Of a DNA stretch of 64,000 nt, positions 4,338 to 57,020 are shown one piece after another. The notes under the pieces are model-generated. The model saw nothing but the letters and a program-made list of their open reading frames with translations. It searched no databases and was not told where the DNA came from. Where the stretch lies: contig JAUTXP010000014.1 of assembly GCA_030837965.1 (NCBI GenBank), positions 72,605 through 136,604 of the forward strand, given 5' to 3'. Both the position numbers and the translations under genes were made by a program. Source of the DNA: Acidimicrobiaceae bacterium. Lineage in GTDB: Bacteria > Actinomycetota > Acidimicrobiia > Acidimicrobiales > JAUTXP01. Every line of letters starts with the position of its first letter. Positions within the stretch are counted from its first letter, which is position 1.

Positions 4338-4775
4338 TCAGGTGGTCGACTCGGCCGCGGTCTTGAGCGAGCGCAGCGTGCGCTCCAGGCCCTTCTGCAA
4401 CTGGCGCCCCCTGAAGACCACCGCGTAGGCCAGTTCCAACAGCGCGGGTCCGTGGGTCTCGAACGACTCCACCACCTCAGTCGACGTTCCATCGGCGCGG
4501 TCGTTGAACTGGTAGCGCCACAACGTGGAGCCGGTGTCGAAGGCGAACACCCGGCCGGGCTCGCACTCGGTCACCTTGGGGGTGGTCGACCATCGAGCCA
4601 CGCCGAGCCGGTTGGCCCCTTTGAACTTGGCGCCCACGGCGGGACCTGTGGCCCCGTCGACCCATTCGCAGCGGTGCGTCTCCGGGCTCCACTCGCCCAT
4701 GCGGGTCACGTCGGAGACCATGGACCAGAGTCGGTCGGCGGGGGCGTTGACGGTCGTGCGGGCTTCACCCTTCAT
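4338..4775 (-). CDS. SRPBCC family protein (polyketide cyclase/START-like)
   Basis: [32 protein letters not shown]..., typical SRPBCC N-terminus. Confidence 0.8.
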
Positions 4776-4800: not shown

Positions 4801-5796
4801 ATGCCCGCAACGACCCCAGTGCACGTCACCGTCACCGGCGCGGCCGGCCAGATCGGCTACGCCCTGCTGTTCCGCATCGCCTCCGGCCACCTGCTCGGCC
4901 CCGACCAGCCCGTGGTGTTGCGGCTGCTCGAGATCGAGCCGGCCATGAAGTCGCTCGAAGGCGTGGTGATGGAGCTGGACGACTGCGCCTTCCCGCTGTT
5001 GGCCGACGTGGTGCCCACGTCGGATTTGAAGACGGCGTTCGACGGCACGTCGTGGGCCTTGCTCGTGGGGTCCATCCCTCGCAAGGCGGGCATGGAGCGC
5101 GGCGACCTGCTGAACGTGAATGGCGGCATCTTCAAGCCGCAGGGCCAGGCCATCAACGACAACGCGGCTGACGACGTGCGCATCCTGGTCGTCGGCAACC
5201 CGTGCAACACCAACTGCCTGATCGCCCGATCGAACGCGCCCGATGTGCCTGCCGACCGCTGGTTCGCCATGACCGGGCTGGACCAGAACCGGGCCAAGTC
5301 GCAGTTGGCCAAGCGGGCGGGCGTCCCCGTGGCCGACGTCACCAACGTGGCCATCTGGGGCAACCACTCGGCCACCCAGTACCCCGACTTCCGCAACGCC
5401 CGCATCGGCGGCCGCCCCGCGCCCGAGGTCATCGGCGACGACGAGTGGCTGCAGGGCGACTTCATCTCCACCGTGCAGAAGCGGGGCGCGGCCATCATCG
5501 AGGCGCGGGGCGCGTCCTCGGCCGCGTCCGCCGCCAACGCGGCCATCGACAGCGTGGTCGGCGTGCGCACCAAGACGGCGGCGGGGGACTGCGTGTCGGT
5601 GGCCGTGGCCTCGACCGGCGACTACGGCGTGCCCGAAGGCTTGCAGTTCGGCTACCCGGTGGTGGCCGACGGCAGCGGCGGCTGGACCGTGGCCACCGGC
5701 TTCGAGCACGACGACTTCGCGGCTGACAAGATCCGCATCACCACCGAGGAACTGTTGGCCGAGCGGGACGAGGTCAAGCAGCTCGGCCTCATCTGA
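4801..5796 (+). CDS. mdh: Malate dehydrogenase
   Basis: [21 protein letters not shown]...[25 protein letters not shown]...[12 protein letters not shown]...TGLDQNRA...IWGNHS. Confidence 0.95.
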
Positions 5797-5824: not shown

Positions 5825-5854
5825 CTTTCCACAGCAACAGGTGCTGTGGAAAAG
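5825..5854. repeat. Family-1 palindrome, copy 1 (TTTCCACAGCA-acagg-TGCTGTGGAAA)
   Basis: Inverted repeat between the convergent mdh and the 70-aa ORF; near-identical to copies at 17182 and 54602. Confidence 0.9.
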
Positions 5855-13617: not shown

Positions 13618-13676
13618 GTCCTCCAGACAACTCTGGAGGACATACCCCCGCGAATCCGACACCTATGTCCTCCAGA
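13618..13676. repeat. Triple motif giving two mutually exclusive hairpins (GTCCTCCAGA / TCTGGAGGACATA / TATGTCCTCCAGA)
   Basis: 13618-13627 pairs with 13632-13641 (4-nt loop), or 13632-13644 pairs with 13664-13676 (19-nt loop); lies downstream of sdhB. Confidence 0.8.
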
Positions 13677-17181: not shown

Positions 17182-17212
17182 CTTTTCCACAGCACCTGCT
17201 GCTGTGGAAAAG
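17182..17212. repeat. Family-1 palindrome, copy 2 (CTTTTCCACAGCA-cctgc-TGCTGTGGAAAAG)
   Basis: Perfect 13-bp arms; ends 1 bp before the GH2 gene stop codon. Confidence 0.95.
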
Positions 17213-17213
17213 A

Positions 17214-19370
17214 TCAGGCTGGCGCCTGGTCGGTGGTGAAGCGGTTGGTCGCCTTGACGCCGTCGGCGGCCGACAGCTCGAGGTCGAGGACGAGCAACGT
17301 GACGCCGTCGGGCACCACGAACGAGACCGTGCCGATGCGCGCCACCGAGTCCGCGTCCACGTCACCCGCCCACGACCATTCGTGCGACCCGCCGGGCCAC
17401 GACAACACGGCCCGCACGCGGCCGTCGACGATGGGCGTGCGCAGGTCCGACACGACATGCACGTCCAGCGCCAGCGCGTCGCCTCCCGCGACCTGGGCGG
17501 GCACGGCGTCGGCCACCACGATCACCGGTGCACAGGCCGCGGCCAGCGCGTCGTACCCGGCCTTGGGCGAGCGGTCGACGCCCAGCACGGACCACGTGGC
17601 CCCGGGCGCGCCGTCGGCGAACATCAAGTGGGAGAAGCCGCCGGTGGGCCGGTACTTGAGCCGACGCAGCGTCTCGACTGTCCGCCGCACGACCACCGCC
17701 TGGTACTCCTGGGTGGCGTCCCGCCAGTCCTCGAACGACGAGAACCCAGAGCGCGGGACATGGCGCTCGATCTCGCCGGCGACGGTATCCCCGCCCGCGC
17801 CCTCGGTCCACTCCCGCCAGTCCGCCTCAGTCCACCCCGTGGGCACGGATCGGGCGCCGAACTCGGACACGAAGCGGGCCATGCGGGGCCACGCCGCCAG
17901 GTAGCCGGCCACGTCCCGCCACGACCCGCGGTGCCAGCCGAAGAACAGGTGCGAGTCGGTGCCGCCGCTCACCAGCCCGGGCAGCACGCCGGAATGGGCC
18001 ACCACCGGACGCGACCCGTCGGCCCGCTCGAAGGCCCGCTTCACCGACGAGTCCAGCACCGTCTTGTTCCACGTCGGCACCTGTTGCAGCACGACCCGCT
18101 TGAACGACCGGGCCGCCTCCGGCGCCGCGGCCGGGTCCATGGCCATGGGCTCGTTGTGGCCGCACCACACGGCGATGGACGGATGGTGGCCGAGCAGGTC
18201 GACGGCCTCTCTGGCCTGGCGGGCGGCCTGCTTGCGGATGCCCCGCGCGTACCCCCACTGCAACGGGAAGTCCTGCCACAGCAGCATGCCGTGGCGGTCG
18301 GCCGCCTCGTACAGCTCGGGCCTGCTGATGTGGGCGCCCAGCCGCAACAGGTCGAGGCCTGCGTCGCGGGCCAACAGCACGTCTCGCTCGAAGTCAGCGG
18401 CATGGGCGCAGGCCAGATCCATGCGCGTCGGCCCTTGGACCGAGCCCTTCAAGAACAGGCGCTCGCCGTTGACGGTGAACACGAAGTCCTTCATGGCGAC
18501 GTGGCGAAGACCAGTCCGCAACGACCGCGAGTCGCTCGCCGTCTCGGGCTGGCCCGTCCCGTTGACGATCGACACGGACACGTCCACGTCGGTCATCGTC
18601 TGCGGCCCCAACGACCACGGCCACCACAGGTCCGGCCCCTCGACGAACACGTTCCACGACACCCGGTTCTCGCCCGCGGCCACGGGCTGTTCCAGCTCGT
18701 GCTCGACCGAGCCGACCGTCGTCCGCAGCCTCACGACCGCTGCCTCGGCCGCGTCGAGGACGGCCCGCAGGGACACGACGGCGCGCTCCTCGGACGCCTC
18801 CGGGCACAAGGCCCGCAGCCTGGCGATGCGCACCGGGCCCGACTGCTCGACGCGCACGTCGCGCCAGATGCCGCCCGGGTTCCATCCGGGATCCAGGAAG
18901 TCGGAGTGCTGGAACGTGCCCGTGATGTTGCGCTTGGCCCTCGGGTCACCCGGTCTGCTGCACGCCACCTCCACGGCCAGCACGTGCTCCCCGTCGGACC
19001 GGCCGGACGGGGACGACAAGGCCTGGGTCACCTCGAAGGCGTGCGGGAAGAAGTAGCCCTCGGTGTCGCCCACATACGAGCCGTCGAGCCAGACGTCGCT
19101 CTGGTAGAAGACGCCGTCGAATACCAGCCACGACCGCTGCCCGGTCGGAGCCGTGGGCCACCCGAACCTCCGTCGATACAGGAGGGGCCCGTCGCTTTCG
19201 GCGAAGGCCGAGGTCGAGCGCCAGTGGGATGGGACCTCGATCTCGGCCCAGGACGAGTCGTCGAAGTCAGGTTCCGGGTAGGCCCGGCGCAAGGCCTCGT
19301 CTGCCTCTGCCGCCCGCCACGCCCCGTGTGGCCCGCCGCTCAGGCCCACGTCCACCGGCAGGCGGTTCAC
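17214..19370 (-). CDS. Glycoside hydrolase family 2 protein (beta-mannosidase-like)
   Basis: WLVFDGVFYQSDVWLDGSYVGDTEGYFFPHAFEVT; GVNPGGIWRDVRVE-like; DLLRLGAHISRPELYEAADRHGMLLWQDFPLQWGYARG; WCGHNEP. Confidence 0.88.
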   Translation of the reverse strand: MNRLPVDVGLSGGPHGAWRAAEADEALRRAYPEPDFDDSSWAEIEVPSHWRSTSAFAESDGPLLYRRRFGWPTAPTGQRSWLVFDGVFYQSDVWLDGSYVGDTEGYFFPHAFEVTQALSSPSGRSDGEHVLAVEVACSRPGDPRAKRNITGTFQHSDFLDPGWNPGGIWRDVRVEQSGPVRIARLRALCPEASEERAVVSLRAVLDAAEAAVVRLRTTVGSVEHELEQPVAAGENRVSWNVFVEGPDLWWPWSLGPQTMTDVDVSVSIVNGTGQPETASDSRSLRTGLRHVAMKDFVFTVNGERLFLKGSVQGPTRMDLACAHAADFERDVLLARDAGLDLLRLGAHISRPELYEAADRHGMLLWQDFPLQWGYARGIRKQAARQAREAVDLLGHHPSIAVWCGHNEPMAMDPAAAPEAARSFKRVVLQQVPTWNKTVLDSSVKRAFERADGSRPVVAHSGVLPGLVSGGTDSHLFFGWHRGSWRDVAGYLAAWPRMARFVSEFGARSVPTGWTEADWREWTEGAGGDTVAGEIERHVPRSGFSSFEDWRDATQEYQAVVVRRTVETLRRLKYRPTGGFSHLMFADGAPGATWSVLGVDRSPKAGYDALAAACAPVIVVADAVPAQVAGGDALALDVHVVSDLRTPIVDGRVRAVLSWPGGSHEWSWAGDVDADSVARIGTVSFVVPDGVTLLVLDLELSAADGVKATNRFTTDQAPA

Positions 19371-22075
19371 CCCTCGCGCCGCGCGCCCGCCAGCCGGCGT
19401 CGGCCGGCGGTCAGGCCCAGCCCCAGCATCCCCAGGCCCAAGCCGATCAAGGCCCAGTCGCCCAGGTCGCCGGTGGCAGGCAGGGTGCCGCTGCCGCCCG
19501 CCGCGCCCGGCGTCCCGCCCGGGCCGTTGCCGCCCTTCAAGATGTCCTGGGCGCCGGGGCCGGCCAGGGCCACGTCGAAGGTGGGCGTGGCGTCGACCGT
19601 GATGGGCGCGGTGTTGAGGGTCACCATCTGGTCCTGGGGGCCGATAAGCGCGTAGCTGCCGACGGAGTACAGCGGTGAGTTCACGGTGGGCGAGCCGATG
19701 GCCTCCAACGGCACGTCGATGACGATGGCCCCGTCCTCCACCTTGCCCGTGGCCGCGGTAAGCGGCTGGTACGTGTTGCCCATGACCCCGCCGGAAGCGG
19801 GCGACAGCATGCCCTCGTCGTTCGAGACCTTGCCCGAGAAGAACGTGGGCGTGGTCGAGCCCGCGGGGACGTTGGCCCCCACGTACCAGGCGTTGCCGCC
19901 GAAGTCCCAGCGGGTGATGTACTTGGCCTGCTGCAACTGGGAGAGGTCGTCCATGCCCGTGGGGATGGCGCCCACCTTCGACGAGTCCGCCACGCGCATA
20001 CGCACCGTCGCCGTCTTGGCATCCTTGATCTCGATGGTGGTGCCGAGCAGGTCGAGCCCTTGCTGGTTGGACGCGGTGAGGAGCTTCTTCCCGGCGATGG
20101 GGTAGAGGGCGTCGCCCGCAGGGTCGCCCACGCCGTTGACCCGCTTGCCCAACAGGACGCCAGGCTTGCCGTCGAACAGGCTCGGGCCGGTGGCCTGCCT
20201 GGCCACCTTCACGAACGGGAGGCCGGTGGCGTTGCGGGTGTCGCTCCAGACGAAGCCGAGGTGGCCCTGCCTGTCCAGCGAGACGTCGAAGTAGTCGAGC
20301 AGGTTGCGGTTGCCCGGCTTGGCGGGCGAGGGCTGGGCCACGCACGCCGTCCCCGAGGTGCAGATGTTGTCGTCGTGGTTGGCCTGATGGGCGATCACGC
20401 TCTGGTGGAACGACGGGCTCTTGCACGGCGTGGCGTCCCATTGGCACAGCGCGTTGTACGAGGTGGAGACGAACGGATACCAGCCGCCTTGGCCGGTGAG
20501 GACGTGGTCGGGGTCGATCGCGTCGGCCGCGGTTCCGTAATAGGACACGGCGATCTTGCCCGGCGAGCCCGCGACCACATCAGGGAAGATGGTCACGGTC
20601 AACGGGTCGCCGTCGACGATGACCGGAGTCGACCACTTGGAGGCCGGTGCGGCGGCGTTGGCCGGGTCCGCGGCCAGGCTCGTCGACAACCACGTGTGCT
20701 CGGTGTTGCTCTCCGCCCACGTGATGTAGAGGTTGCCCGCACTGTCGATCTGGAGCTTGTTCATGCTGCGCACGCTGGCCGTGTTGGGGATGCGGTGATC
20801 GGTCCAGTTGGCGCCGTCGTCGGTGGACACGGCCACGTGGAAGGTGCCCAGGTCGTCCAAGCCGTTGAGCACATGGGCGATGTAGCTGACGTAGAGCGTG
20901 TGGTTGTGAGGCCCGCCGGTGTTGTCGATCACCAGCGCTCCGCTCTGGGTCACGTTCTGGAAGCCGATGGCGGGCGGCTGCCACGTGCCCGTCGTCCCGC
21001 CGGTGGTGCTGTGGCTGATGCACTCGGCCACCACCGGCACATGGAAGGCGAGGAACACGTCGTTGGTGCCCTTGTACGACGCCAGCCACTGGCGGTCGAC
21101 CGGCGCGCACGGGGCGCTCACGACGGGGTCGGTGTGGTTGGTGTCGAAGGACACGCCGTGGTCGAACGAGGAAGCCACCGCTTGCGCGCCGAGCGACTCC
21201 TGTGACGCGAAGTAGACGTTGCCGTTCCCCTCGTTGACGTTCACGTCCGTATCGCCGCCCCCGCCCGTCGTGCACATGGGGACCTGTCGGCCCGCGCAGA
21301 CCAGGCCCGCGTTGGACGGGTCGCCCGCGTCCGCGTAGCGCTTGCGGAACGTCAGCCCGCCGTCGTCGGATCTGAAGAGCACGCCGATGTTGGTGCGGCT
21401 CGACACGGGCCAGTCCACAAAGGCGCGCGAGCCGTCGGTGGTGGCGTCGAAGTTGAGGCCCGGCTCGCCGCCGAAGACGAGCGGGTCGACGACCGTGGCC
21501 GCGGTGAACTGCAAGAGGTTGTCGTTGGCCGAGTTGGGGTTGCGAGGCGGCTTGGCCGCGCTGGCCGCGGACGTGGTGGTGACGGTGAGCGAGCCCTTGT
21601 AGGGCTGGTCGCTGGTGTTGATCGATCCGCACGCGAGGACCTTGTAGGTGCCCGCCTTCAAGTTGGCGGCCACTGCCGTCTCGGTCGTCTCCGCGCCGTC
21701 GTTGCGGGCCACCACGGTGCCGTCCGGGGCCAGCACGGTGATGACCTCGTCGTTGTAAGCGGCGTCGGCCTGCGCGTTGGTGGGCGTCCACGTGATGGAG
21801 AACTTGAAGTTCGCCGACCGCGTGTCGTAGAAGCCGCTAGGCAAGGTGAACGTGACCGCGAAGGCATCGGCGAAGGTGTCGTCCGAGCACTGCCCCGTCA
21901 CGTTGGGCGGGGCCACCGGGATGGTGCCCGTCCACGAGGCCGAGGCCGTGCCTCCCGGGTTGGCGGGGACGGCCACCGTTCCTGAGGACGGGTTGGCCGC
22001 GAAGAGGGGCGAGGTGAGGGCGCCGACGAGGCCGACGGCGGCGGCCACGACGGCCGCTTTGGTTGTTCTGCGCAC
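19367..22075 (-). CDS. Secreted sialidase/BNR-like surface protein with LPATG sortase signal
   Basis: N-terminal signal peptide; BNR-like SDDGGLTFRK, STDDGANWTDH; C-terminal LPATGD (19469-19483) + hydrophobic helix + RRRLAGARR tail. Confidence 0.8.
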   Translation of the reverse strand: MRRTTKAAVVAAAVGLVGALTSPLFAANPSSGTVAVPANPGGTASASWTGTIPVAPPNVTGQCSDDTFADAFAVTFTLPSGFYDTRSANFKFSITWTPTNAQADAAYNDEVITVLAPDGTVVARNDGAETTETAVAANLKAGTYKVLACGSINTSDQPYKGSLTVTTTSAASAAKPPRNPNSANDNLLQFTAATVVDPLVFGGEPGLNFDATTDGSRAFVDWPVSSRTNIGVLFRSDDGGLTFRKRYADAGDPSNAGLVCAGRQVPMCTTGGGGDTDVNVNEGNGNVYFASQESLGAQAVASSFDHGVSFDTNHTDPVVSAPCAPVDRQWLASYKGTNDVFLAFHVPVVAECISHSTTGGTTGTWQPPAIGFQNVTQSGALVIDNTGGPHNHTLYVSYIAHVLNGLDDLGTFHVAVSTDDGANWTDHRIPNTASVRSMNKLQIDSAGNLYITWAESNTEHTWLSTSLAADPANAAAPASKWSTPVIVDGDPLTVTIFPDVVAGSPGKIAVSYYGTAADAIDPDHVLTGQGGWYPFVSTSYNALCQWDATPCKSPSFHQSVIAHQANHDDNICTSGTACVAQPSPAKPGNRNLLDYFDVSLDRQGHLGFVWSDTRNATGLPFVKVARQATGPSLFDGKPGVLLGKRVNGVGDPAGDALYPIAGKKLLTASNQQGLDLLGTTIEIKDAKTATVRMRVADSSKVGAIPTGMDDLSQLQQAKYITRWDFGGNAWYVGANVPAGSTTPTFFSGKVSNDEGMLSPASGGVMGNTYQPLTAATGKVEDGAIVIDVPLEAIGSPTVNSPLYSVGSYALIGPQDQMVTLNTAPITVDATPTFDVALAGPGAQDILKGGNGPGGTPGAAGGSGTLPATGDLGDWALIGLGLGMLGLGLTAGRRRLAGARREG

Positions 22076-35020: not shown

Positions 35021-35062
35021 CTTGTCGCGCTGAGTGCCATATATGGCATTGAGCGCGACAAG
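35021..35062. repeat. Family-3 42-nt palindrome (CTTGTCGCGCT-gag-TGCCATATATGGCA-ttg-AGCGCGACAAG)
   Basis: 11-bp outer arms plus perfect 14-bp central palindrome in the convergent gap between dgt and the cytochrome b gene. Confidence 0.92.
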
Positions 35063-54601: not shown

Positions 54602-54632
54602 CTTTTCCACAGCACCTGCTGCTGTGGAAAAG
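54602..54632. repeat. Family-1 palindrome, copy 3 (CTTTTCCACAGCA-cctgc-TGCTGTGGAAAAG)
   Basis: Identical over 32 nt (with preceding A) to copy 2; 28 bp downstream of the carboxyltransferase stop. Confidence 0.95.
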
Positions 54633-54660: not shown

Positions 54661-56241
54661 TCAGACGGGCAGGACGCCGTGCTTGCGCCAGGGGCGCTGC
54701 ACCTGCTTGGTGCGCGACGCCTGGAGGCCGCGCCAGATGGCCAGGCGGGTCTCGGCCGGGTCGATGATGTCGTCCACCTGCGCGTGCCCGGCCGCGATGT
54801 ACGGGTCGATGTTCTTGCGCAACTGGTCGGCCATGGCCAGGCGGGTCTCGTCGCGCTCCTTGCCCTCGGGGATGGCGTCCAACTGCTTGCGCATGATGAT
54901 GTTGACCATCCCGTCCGGCCCCATCACCGCGATCTCGGCCGTCGGCCAGGCCGCGATGTAGTCGGCCTCGTACGCCGTCCCGTTCATCACGAAGTACCCG
55001 GCGCCGTAGGCCTTGCGCAGCACGATGGTCACCTTGGGCACGGTCGCCTCGGACACGGCGAACAGCATCTTGGCCCCGTGCCGGATGATGCCCTGCTTCT
55101 CGACAGCCGACCCCACGATGAACCCGGGGACGTCTTGCAGGAACACGAGCGGGATGCCAAAGGCGTCGCACAGCCACACGAACCGGGCCGCCTTGTCGGC
55201 CGAGTTCACGTCCAGCGTCCCGCCCAGCACCTTGGGCTGCGAGGCCACGATCCCCACCGGCTGTCCGCCCACGCGAGCGAACGCGGTGATCACGTTCTTG
55301 GCCCACTCGGGCTTCATCGGGAAGACCTCGCCGTCGTCCACCACCGCCTCGATGACGCGGTACATGTCGTAGGCCCGGCGGGGCGCGGTGGGGACGATGT
55401 CGTACAGCTCCTCGCATCGACGGTCGACCGGGTCGCTGCACTGGCGCACGGGCGGCGACTCCTGGTTGTGCGAAGGAAAGAACGACAAGTAGCGACGGAT
55501 GGTCTGAAGGCACGACGCGTCGTCCTCCACCTCCAGGTCGGCCACGCCGCTGACCTTGGTGTGGACGCCAGACCCGCCCATCTCCTCCTCGCTCACGTCC
55601 TCGCCCGTGGCCGCCTTGACCAGATGCCGACCGCCCAAGGCCATGGACGAGTTGCCTTTCACCATGGGGATGAAGTCGGCCAACGCAGGGATGTAGGCCG
55701 TGCCCGCGGCGCAGTGCCCGAGCATGGCCGCGACCTGCGGCACCACGCCCGACAGCGTGACCTGCTCGCGGAACAGCGCCCCCGCGGCCGCGAACGTGGA
55801 GCCGGTCGACTGTTGGATGCGGGCGCCCGCGGAGTCGAGCAGCCACACCATGGGGATGCGCTGACGCTCGGCCAGCTCGCGCATGCGCGCCGTCTTGTGC
55901 TCCCCCACCCCGCCCATCGACCCGGCCATGACGGTGAAGTCGTACGCCATGACCGCGACGCGCCGGCCGTCGATCAACCCGATGCCCGCCACCATGCCGT
56001 CCGCGGCCAGGTACCCCTTGTCGGCTTGCAACTGCGGGTCCATGGAGTCGGCCAGCAACCCGTACTCGATGAACGTGCCCGCGTCGACCAGCGCGTCGAT
56101 GCGCTCGCGCACCGGCCATTTGCCCAACGACCGCTGCCGCTCGACGCGCTCGGGGCCGCCCATGGCGTAGGCCCGCTCGCGTCGGCCACGCAGGTCCTCG
56201 ACGAGCGGCTTCCAGTCGTGCAGGGACGGGTCGTCAGCCAC
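54661..56241 (-). CDS. Acyl-CoA carboxylase carboxyltransferase subunit
   Basis: MMGSMGGVGEHKTARMRELAERQRIPMVWLLDSAGARIQ; LGHCAAGTAYIPALADF; FGIPLVFLQDVPGFIVGSAVEKQGIIRHGAKMLFAVSEATVPKVTIVLRKAYGAGYFVMNG. Confidence 0.93.
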   Translation of the reverse strand: MADDPSLHDWKPLVEDLRGRRERAYAMGGPERVERQRSLGKWPVRERIDALVDAGTFIEYGLLADSMDPQLQADKGYLAADGMVAGIGLIDGRRVAVMAYDFTVMAGSMGGVGEHKTARMRELAERQRIPMVWLLDSAGARIQQSTGSTFAAAGALFREQVTLSGVVPQVAAMLGHCAAGTAYIPALADFIPMVKGNSSMALGGRHLVKAATGEDVSEEEMGGSGVHTKVSGVADLEVEDDASCLQTIRRYLSFFPSHNQESPPVRQCSDPVDRRCEELYDIVPTAPRRAYDMYRVIEAVVDDGEVFPMKPEWAKNVITAFARVGGQPVGIVASQPKVLGGTLDVNSADKAARFVWLCDAFGIPLVFLQDVPGFIVGSAVEKQGIIRHGAKMLFAVSEATVPKVTIVLRKAYGAGYFVMNGTAYEADYIAAWPTAEIAVMGPDGMVNIIMRKQLDAIPEGKERDETRLAMADQLRKNIDPYIAAGHAQVDDIIDPAETRLAIWRGLQASRTKQVQRPWRKHGVLPV

Positions 56242-57020
56242 TAGCGGCCTTTCCATTGAGGCGCTCGCTTCTCGACGAACGCGGTGATGCCTTCCTTCGA
56301 GTCCTCGGTCATGGTGGTGAGGGTGAGCATCGGGTGCAGGAGCTTGAGGGCCTCGGCCGCCCCTTGGTCCCACACCGCGTAGAACGAGTCGCGACCGAGC
56401 TTGACGATGGCGGGCGACTTGGACGCCAGCGCGCCGGCCAGATCGGCCACGGCCGCGTCCAACTCGTCGACCGGGACGACCCGATTCACGAACCCGATGC
56501 GCTCGGCCTCGTCGGCTTTGACCCGCCTGCCGGTGAGCATCAGCTCCAACACCTTCTTGGGCGGCATCGACCGCACCAGCGGCACCGTGATCATGTACGG
56601 CCACAGGCCCACGTCGATCTCGGGCGTGCCGAATTGGGCATCGTCGGCGGCCACCACGAAGTCATGGGCCAACGCCAGCCCGAACCCGCCCGCTAACGCG
56701 TAGCCGCGGATGCGCGCAATCGTCGGCTTGCCCAACATCCACATGTCGTTGAAGAGCCGGGCCAACTCCCCCCTGCCCTCGTGCAGGTCGACAAACCCTG
56801 CGCCCTCGGCCATCCCGGTGAGGTCGGCGCCCGCGCAGTACGCCTTGTCGCCCGCGCCGGTGGTCACGATCACGCGCACGTCGGGGTCGTCCTTGGCCAC
56901 GGCCAGCAGTCGCCGCATCTCGCGCAATACGTCCCACGACATGGCGTTGCGGCGCTCCGGGCGGTTGATGGTGATGCGGCCGATCCCGTCGGCCACCTCC
57001 CAGAGAACCTCTTCGGACAT
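56241..57020 (-). CDS. Enoyl-CoA hydratase/isomerase family protein
   Basis: GIGRITINRPERRNAMSWDVLREMRRLL; VIVTTGAGDKAYCAGADLTGMAEG; GYALAGGFGLALAHDFVVAADDAQFGTPEIDVGLWPYMITVPLVRSMPPKK. Confidence 0.92.
   Translation of the reverse strand: MSEEVLWEVADGIGRITINRPERRNAMSWDVLREMRRLLAVAKDDPDVRVIVTTGAGDKAYCAGADLTGMAEGAGFVDLHEGRGELARLFNDMWMLGKPTIARIRGYALAGGFGLALAHDFVVAADDAQFGTPEIDVGLWPYMITVPLVRSMPPKKVLELMLTGRRVKADEAERIGFVNRVVPVDELDAAVADLAGALASKSPAIVKLGRDSFYAVWDQGAAEALKLLHPMLTLTTMTEDSKEGITAFVEKRAPQWKGR

Follow-up and report, generated by a model that had tools for sequence, protein, structure and literature searches.

A dispersed 31-nt palindrome family, after and within genes of an Acidimicrobiales-like genome, as a candidate lineage-specific selfish element

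The window analysed here, by which we mean the whole stretch of 64,000 nt, is part of a 3.55-Mb, 88-contig Acidimicrobiales-like assembly with a completeness of 97.9%. The malate dehydrogenase encoded in it is 75-79% identical to those of Acidimicrobiaceae/Acidimicrobiales metagenome assemblies, with a value of 78% for Acidimicrobiaceae MAGs. Three copies of a short palindrome, which we call family A, lie in the window together with the following genes and members of other palindrome families (the palindromes are given without a strand):

4801 to 5796, plus strand: malate dehydrogenase gene (mdh; PF00056, PF02866), upstream of family A copy 1
5825 to 5854: family A copy 1, with loop ACAGG and one T fewer in the left arm, between mdh and a short convergent ORF, 28 nt past the mdh stop (5796)
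13633 to 13675: family B member, CTGGAGGACATRG..CYATGTCCTCCAG, 43 nt, with location and flank skew as in family A
17182 to 17212: family A copy 2, with 13-bp arms around a CCTGC loop, the stop of the glycosyl hydrolase 2-like ORF being 1 nt away
17214 to 20447, minus strand: glycosyl hydrolase 2-like ORF (PF22666, PF02837), ending at copy 2
35021 to 35062: family D member, CTTGTCGCGCTGA..TGAGCGCGACAAG, 42 nt
54602 to 54632: family A copy 3, with the sequence of copy 2 and arms reaching 15 bp here, 28 nt from the carboxyl transferase stop
54661 to 56604, minus strand: carboxyl transferase ORF (PF01039), ending near copy 3

The mdh ORF opens at 4525, and the gene itself most likely starts at the MPATTPV codon; the true start of the carboxyl transferase ORF is probably internal. 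A sequence-only reading of this DNA had reported the three copies, the identity of copies 2 and 3, the ACAGG loop of copy 1 and the closeness of all three to stop codons. Coordinates and stop distances were reproduced, and Pfam agrees on all three neighbouring genes. At copy 1, the convergent stop lies about 4 nt away on the side opposite mdh. Within 3 mismatches, the window holds three copies, versus none in 100 dinucleotide shuffles. Folded as RNA, copy 2 forms a hairpin of -19 kcal/mol (z = -6.1), and at the Rfam gathering score the only match in the window was a tRNA, so that the palindrome matched no known RNA family.

An intrinsic terminator is a GC-rich hairpin followed by a U-tract. 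Family A resembles intrinsic and Rho-dependent terminators in its stable hairpin soon after a stop and in its C-rich lead, but differs from them in being identical at unrelated loci, in also occurring inside genes and in lacking the U-tract: the 12 nt downstream contain 2.1 T on average, and a T-run of at least 4 is found on 2 of 176 sides. The earlier view that the palindrome is not a classical intrinsic terminator was thus borne out.

Throughout the genome, about 177 copies of CTTTTCCACAGCA-N5-TGCTGTGGAAAAG (also written TTTTCCACAGCA-N5-TGCTGTGGAAAA) were found within 3 mismatches, while a reversed control pattern gave 0 matches in the whole genome. The copies are strikingly uniform. All but two (175 of 177) have at most 1 mismatch over 20 arm positions, and 177 full-length matches compare with 180 core matches, leaving no decayed tail. 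A base-by-base reading, which covered 1.71 of the 3.55 Mb and contained 92 copies, found 87 of them exact; their loops, taken in either orientation, fall into three types (GCAGG 70, ACAGG 17, GGGGG 5), and both loop orientations occur within genes and after genes. The conserved unit is 31 nt long (C + 29 + G), with an information content of 1.9 bits at position -1 and 0.6 at -2. None of the 178 half-sites in the 1.71 Mb was solitary, and genome-wide counts of half-sites were 168/171 against 177 copies. On this ground a DNA uptake sequence was rejected. Neighbouring copies are on average 11 kb and never less than 926 nt apart, with a coefficient of variation of 0.93, close to random. Several contigs start or end at a family A copy (C14:1, C17:34, C29:31 and the end of C43), suggesting that the assembly struggled with the palindrome or that repeats were collapsed.

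Family A is the most abundant and most uniform palindrome family in this genome, and at least three further, unrelated ones (B, C and D) occupy the same kind of site, none of them having been seen inside genes. Family B has 94 copies in this genome and is found in two further families within the order as well, with 34 copies in one genome (G013) and 3 in another (G024), where the outer arm reads GAGTACATRG instead of GAGGACATRG and paired changes are found in the inner arm; the order thus has a tradition of such palindromes. In G013 the foot of the stem bears CGTC, as in CGTC REPs. Family C (TTCTGGGCACCTTTTCTT..AAGAAAAGGTGCCCAGAA, 47 nt) has 15 copies close to stop codons in 980 kb (for example, at 0-based starts C12:1870, C24:20243 and C25:56609) and shows the strongest flank C-skew. 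Family D numbers 9 copies in the same 980 kb, at a median of 11 nt from the facing stop (also at C12:27152 and C11:9349). A longer repeat, GAGGGCGAGCCGATAGGCGAGCCCGTGGCCCGAGCGGCCCGGCGGCGAAGCCGCC.., with about 8 copies in 980 kb, begins right after or within a stop-like TAG/TAA (C3:156, C5:9685, C13:8051 and C25:98916, the last at about 26312 of the window). The convergent gaps at C1:73069 and C5:24565 share a long imperfect hairpin with the inner motif CAGCCTCAGTTCG..TTCCAGCCGT and may represent a further small family. In a complete genome of the same order (G006, C1:1-120000), dense interspersed repeats, CACCTGACCCGG and GAGGTGACGGCGAGGAACGAG, have inverted partners and occur 13 to 22 times per 120 kb.

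For the position of family A relative to genes, we used our own simple codon-score predictor, and because it is home-made, gene starts are approximate while stops are exact. Intergenic placement was evaluated in the first 980 kb against random placement in intergenic DNA. As many as 36 of 41 copies have a facing stop within 35 nt, where 8.5 are expected and the maximum of 5000 simulations was 22. Convergent gene pairs flank 21 of the 44 intergenic copies (null 5.0 +- 2.1) and divergent pairs 3 (null 13.8 +- 3.1); a family A copy is present in 26% of the convergent gaps that measure 31 nt or more. The sequence-only reading had placed the palindrome at gene 3' ends and proposed that a dispersed family should be sought across the genome; copies are indeed neither few nor indifferent to 3' ends. 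This location is nevertheless an incomplete description, since 15 of the 92 copies examined fall within ORFs and share a single frame, and family A is therefore not purely a 3'-end signal.

The bias toward stops could also be read functionally: the palindrome would be a bidirectional 3'-end signal, in which a C-rich, G-poor lead on each strand recruits Rho while the hairpin blocks trimming or makes polymerase pause, ending transcripts from both sides. The placement just described and the stable hairpin speak for it, as does the composition between stop and copy (C 60%, G 15%, compared with 40/32% after other genes). Yet a terminator needs no invariant 31-nt sequence, the U-tract is missing, and most convergent gaps contain neither families A to D nor any strong hairpin. 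Further difficulties are the codirectional gaps, which are equally C-rich on the side away from the stop, and the 15 copies in translated genes, whose core is unchanged and which are likewise skewed on both sides. We consider this explanation of the family on the whole rather unlikely. A 3'-end RNA role is plausible for many copies and secondary to the selfish-element reading developed below; it does not explain the in-gene copies, the invariant sequence or the skew on the far side.

The in-gene copies, about one in six of those examined, deserve a closer look. The palindrome is stop-free in all three frames, but all 15 copies are read in the same one, encoding FSTAxxAVEK, a coincidence expected by chance about 2 times in ten million. 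Intergenic copies show a mixed phase to the upstream stop (31/24/39), so the frame bias is confined to translated DNA, as expected if copies in the other frames were removed by selection. Judging from the sequences, the host genes appear to include those for NadB, a CheA-receiver hybrid, MurC, NuoG, a ferredoxin, a desaturase and an M23 peptidase, in which the copies occupy linkers, surface loops and terminal tails. The strongest individual proof of insertion is MurC, recognised by its Pfam Mur ligase domains: in an alignment with 24 orthologues it has a net gain of 9 residues between the conserved VAASL and VTYG. This corresponds to a net 27 nt, a length that comes from one gene compared with distant orthologues. 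The linkers of NadB and NuoG are too variable in length to reveal an insertion, and the evidence for insertion thus comes from MurC.

What was copied appears to be the core itself. Between positions -11 and -40, identity between the flanks of different copies (0.3373) equals that expected from composition (0.3373), and left and right flanks vary independently, with no covariation. The absence of shared flanking sequence identifies the 31-nt core as the copied unit, and co-copying of the flanks was rejected. The flanks were likewise rejected as parts of a longer RNA stem: real pairs of flanks fold no better than shuffled partners, and with the flanks independent, an extended RNA stem is not under selection. 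Six main types of tetramer adjoin the core (CATC, CGAC, CAAC, GAAC, GATC and GCGC), and no direct repeats of 2-10 nt indicating target duplication surround the copies. A MITE or an IS with matching ends was rejected, as no solitary half-site serves as an IS end and target duplication is missing.

Although the flanks share no sequence, they share a composition. On each strand, the 40 nt 5' of the palindrome have a C fraction of about 0.5 and a G fraction of about 0.2, and the 40 nt 3' of it mirror these values. This symmetric skew is present at convergent copies, on both sides of codirectional copies and at in-gene copies; it is also found at families B and C and, weakly, at D. Convergent gaps without a palindrome family and 206 other hairpins are flat, which rules out a generic property of 3'-UTRs or hairpins. 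Fourfold-degenerate sites of the 15 host genes switch from a C:G ratio of 104:21 in the 12 codons upstream to 20:64 in the 12 codons downstream (p = 4e-18), and element-free orthologues of MurC, NadB and NuoG have no such switch. The skew scores of 8 of the 15 in-gene copies exceed those of all 35,884 random in-gene positions, so plain target choice looks insufficient; the in-gene signal becomes weaker once the 10 nt nearest the core are excluded. The skew may stem either from extreme target preference or from later remodelling or selection. It is, in any case, not predicted by simple insertion followed by purifying selection.

Family A was absent from 396 other genomes of the order (203 genera, all from other families) and from 230 further genomes of the phylum, that is, from 626 other genomes in all. 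Spread by phages was rejected, since an exact-match search of 2.9 million viral contigs gave 0 hits. The lack of family A in the 396 genomes of the order also weighs against another interpretation, namely that a protein, chromosome-organising or otherwise, binds the palindrome as DNA and that selection for binding keeps the copies identical. Such a site would suit arms that are invariant, perfectly symmetric and independent of RNA orientation, with flanks that do not covary. But the loop is conserved too, as a few discrete, non-symmetric types, the spacing is close to random, and the one-frame placement in MurC, NadB and NuoG is hard to explain by binding. We therefore regard a binding site as improbable.

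Several known repeats invite comparison. The small dispersed repeats (SDRs) of Nostoc are reportedly 21-27 nt hairpins recently dispersed in one lineage, encoding no enzyme and standing in heptamer and HIP1 contexts. Family A agrees with them in size class, hairpin shape, single-lineage dispersal and lack of an encoded enzyme; it differs in phylum and sequence, and heptamer or HIP1 contexts were not seen. For SDRs, PMC3116915 cites Elhai et al. 2008. CGTC and GTAG REPs are short palindromes that number from tens into the hundreds in a genome and lie downstream of genes or between convergent ones, some of them within ORFs; the CGTC class has stems of 8-9 bp and no known transposase, and untagged REP-like families are acknowledged in the REP literature (PMC3733652). 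Like them, family A is short, high-copy and mostly located downstream of genes or between convergent ORFs, with some copies in ORFs. Unlike them, it has no GTAG or CGTC at the stem ends, its arms are 13 bp long (against the 8-9 bp of the CGTC class), its in-gene copies all keep one frame and its flanks carry a symmetric skew. Unlike REPIN/RAYT systems (PMC3116915), it consists of singlets and not of inverted doublets, as the smallest spacing of 926 nt indicates.

The sequence-only reading had pointed to a possible cognate RAYT/REP transposase, and this suggestion found no support: the Y1_Tnp domain (PF01797) had no match in the approximately 98%-complete assembly, and the same search was positive in 5 of 14 control genomes. 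With the assembly only about 98% complete, a single RAYT gene could be missing, and family A might be a REP or REPIN moved by a RAYT that the assembly lacks or that has diverged too far for PF01797 to recognise. The REP-like size, copy number and place after genes and between convergent genes would fit (PMC3733652, PMC3116915), but with no Y1_Tnp match, no GTAG tag at the stem foot and singlets in place of inverted doublets, we find this very improbable.

The Rickettsia palindromic elements (RPEs), from Rickettsiales, are palindromic repeats of about 105-150 bp, with no known transposase, that lie in frame within unrelated conserved genes and encode a conserved peptide (PMC10969869, PMC2229807). 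Family A shares this in-frame occurrence and conserved peptide, with 15 of 15 copies in one frame and 9 additional residues in MurC, whereas its core is only 31 nt long and it belongs to Actinomycetota; no sequence relation is claimed. As family A lacks their tags, transposase, doublets or size, we do not place it in the GTAG/CGTC REPs, the REPINs or the RPEs.

Overall, we favour, with moderate confidence, the view that family A is a selfish palindrome of the same general kind as REPs and RPEs, specific to its lineage and, at 31 nt, very small. This reading rests on the restriction to one lineage, the uniformity of the copies, a core copied without its flanks, the in-gene insertion and the filtering by frame, and it fits them best; counted against it are the lack of a Y1_Tnp match and of target duplications, and a flank skew that it does not predict. 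The sequence-only reading had attributed identity across unrelated loci to spread or strong constraint, a framing that about 177 near-identical copies uphold. It is tempting to suppose that a putative enzyme acting in trans recognises the hairpin and pastes copies of it at other sites, duplicating no target sequence. Purifying selection would then spare the least harmful sites, just after stops and, above all, between convergent genes. Survivors inside genes would be those in loops, linkers and tails, in the frame giving the hydrophilic FSTAxxAVEK and not in those giving LLLW- or CCC-containing peptides. Where a copy is transcribed at the end of a gene, its hairpin would probably protect or trim back the transcript's 3' end, an effect also proposed for REPs.

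A more far-reaching version would make families A, B and C substrates of one unrecognised palindrome-acting system of the order. Besides moving or maintaining them, this system would over time reshape about 40 nt to either side, making each strand rich in C ahead of the palindrome and rich in G behind it, synonymous positions within genes included. We consider this unlikely; if true, a palindrome with a compositional collar would be a new kind of element and not a REP variant.

As a practical caution, such copies look like terminators when a single window is inspected. How CGTC REPs, RPEs and similar enzyme-less repeats move can be tested in this genome, where four sequence families stand side by side, one of them also present elsewhere in the order in other families, with a measurable flank signature. 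If the selfish-element reading is true, a 31-nt piece of selfish DNA with no known transposase has reached about 177 places and is tolerated even in murC, nadB and nuoG, and the idea behind RPEs, that palindromes seed protein insertions, would extend to a different phylum and a far smaller unit.
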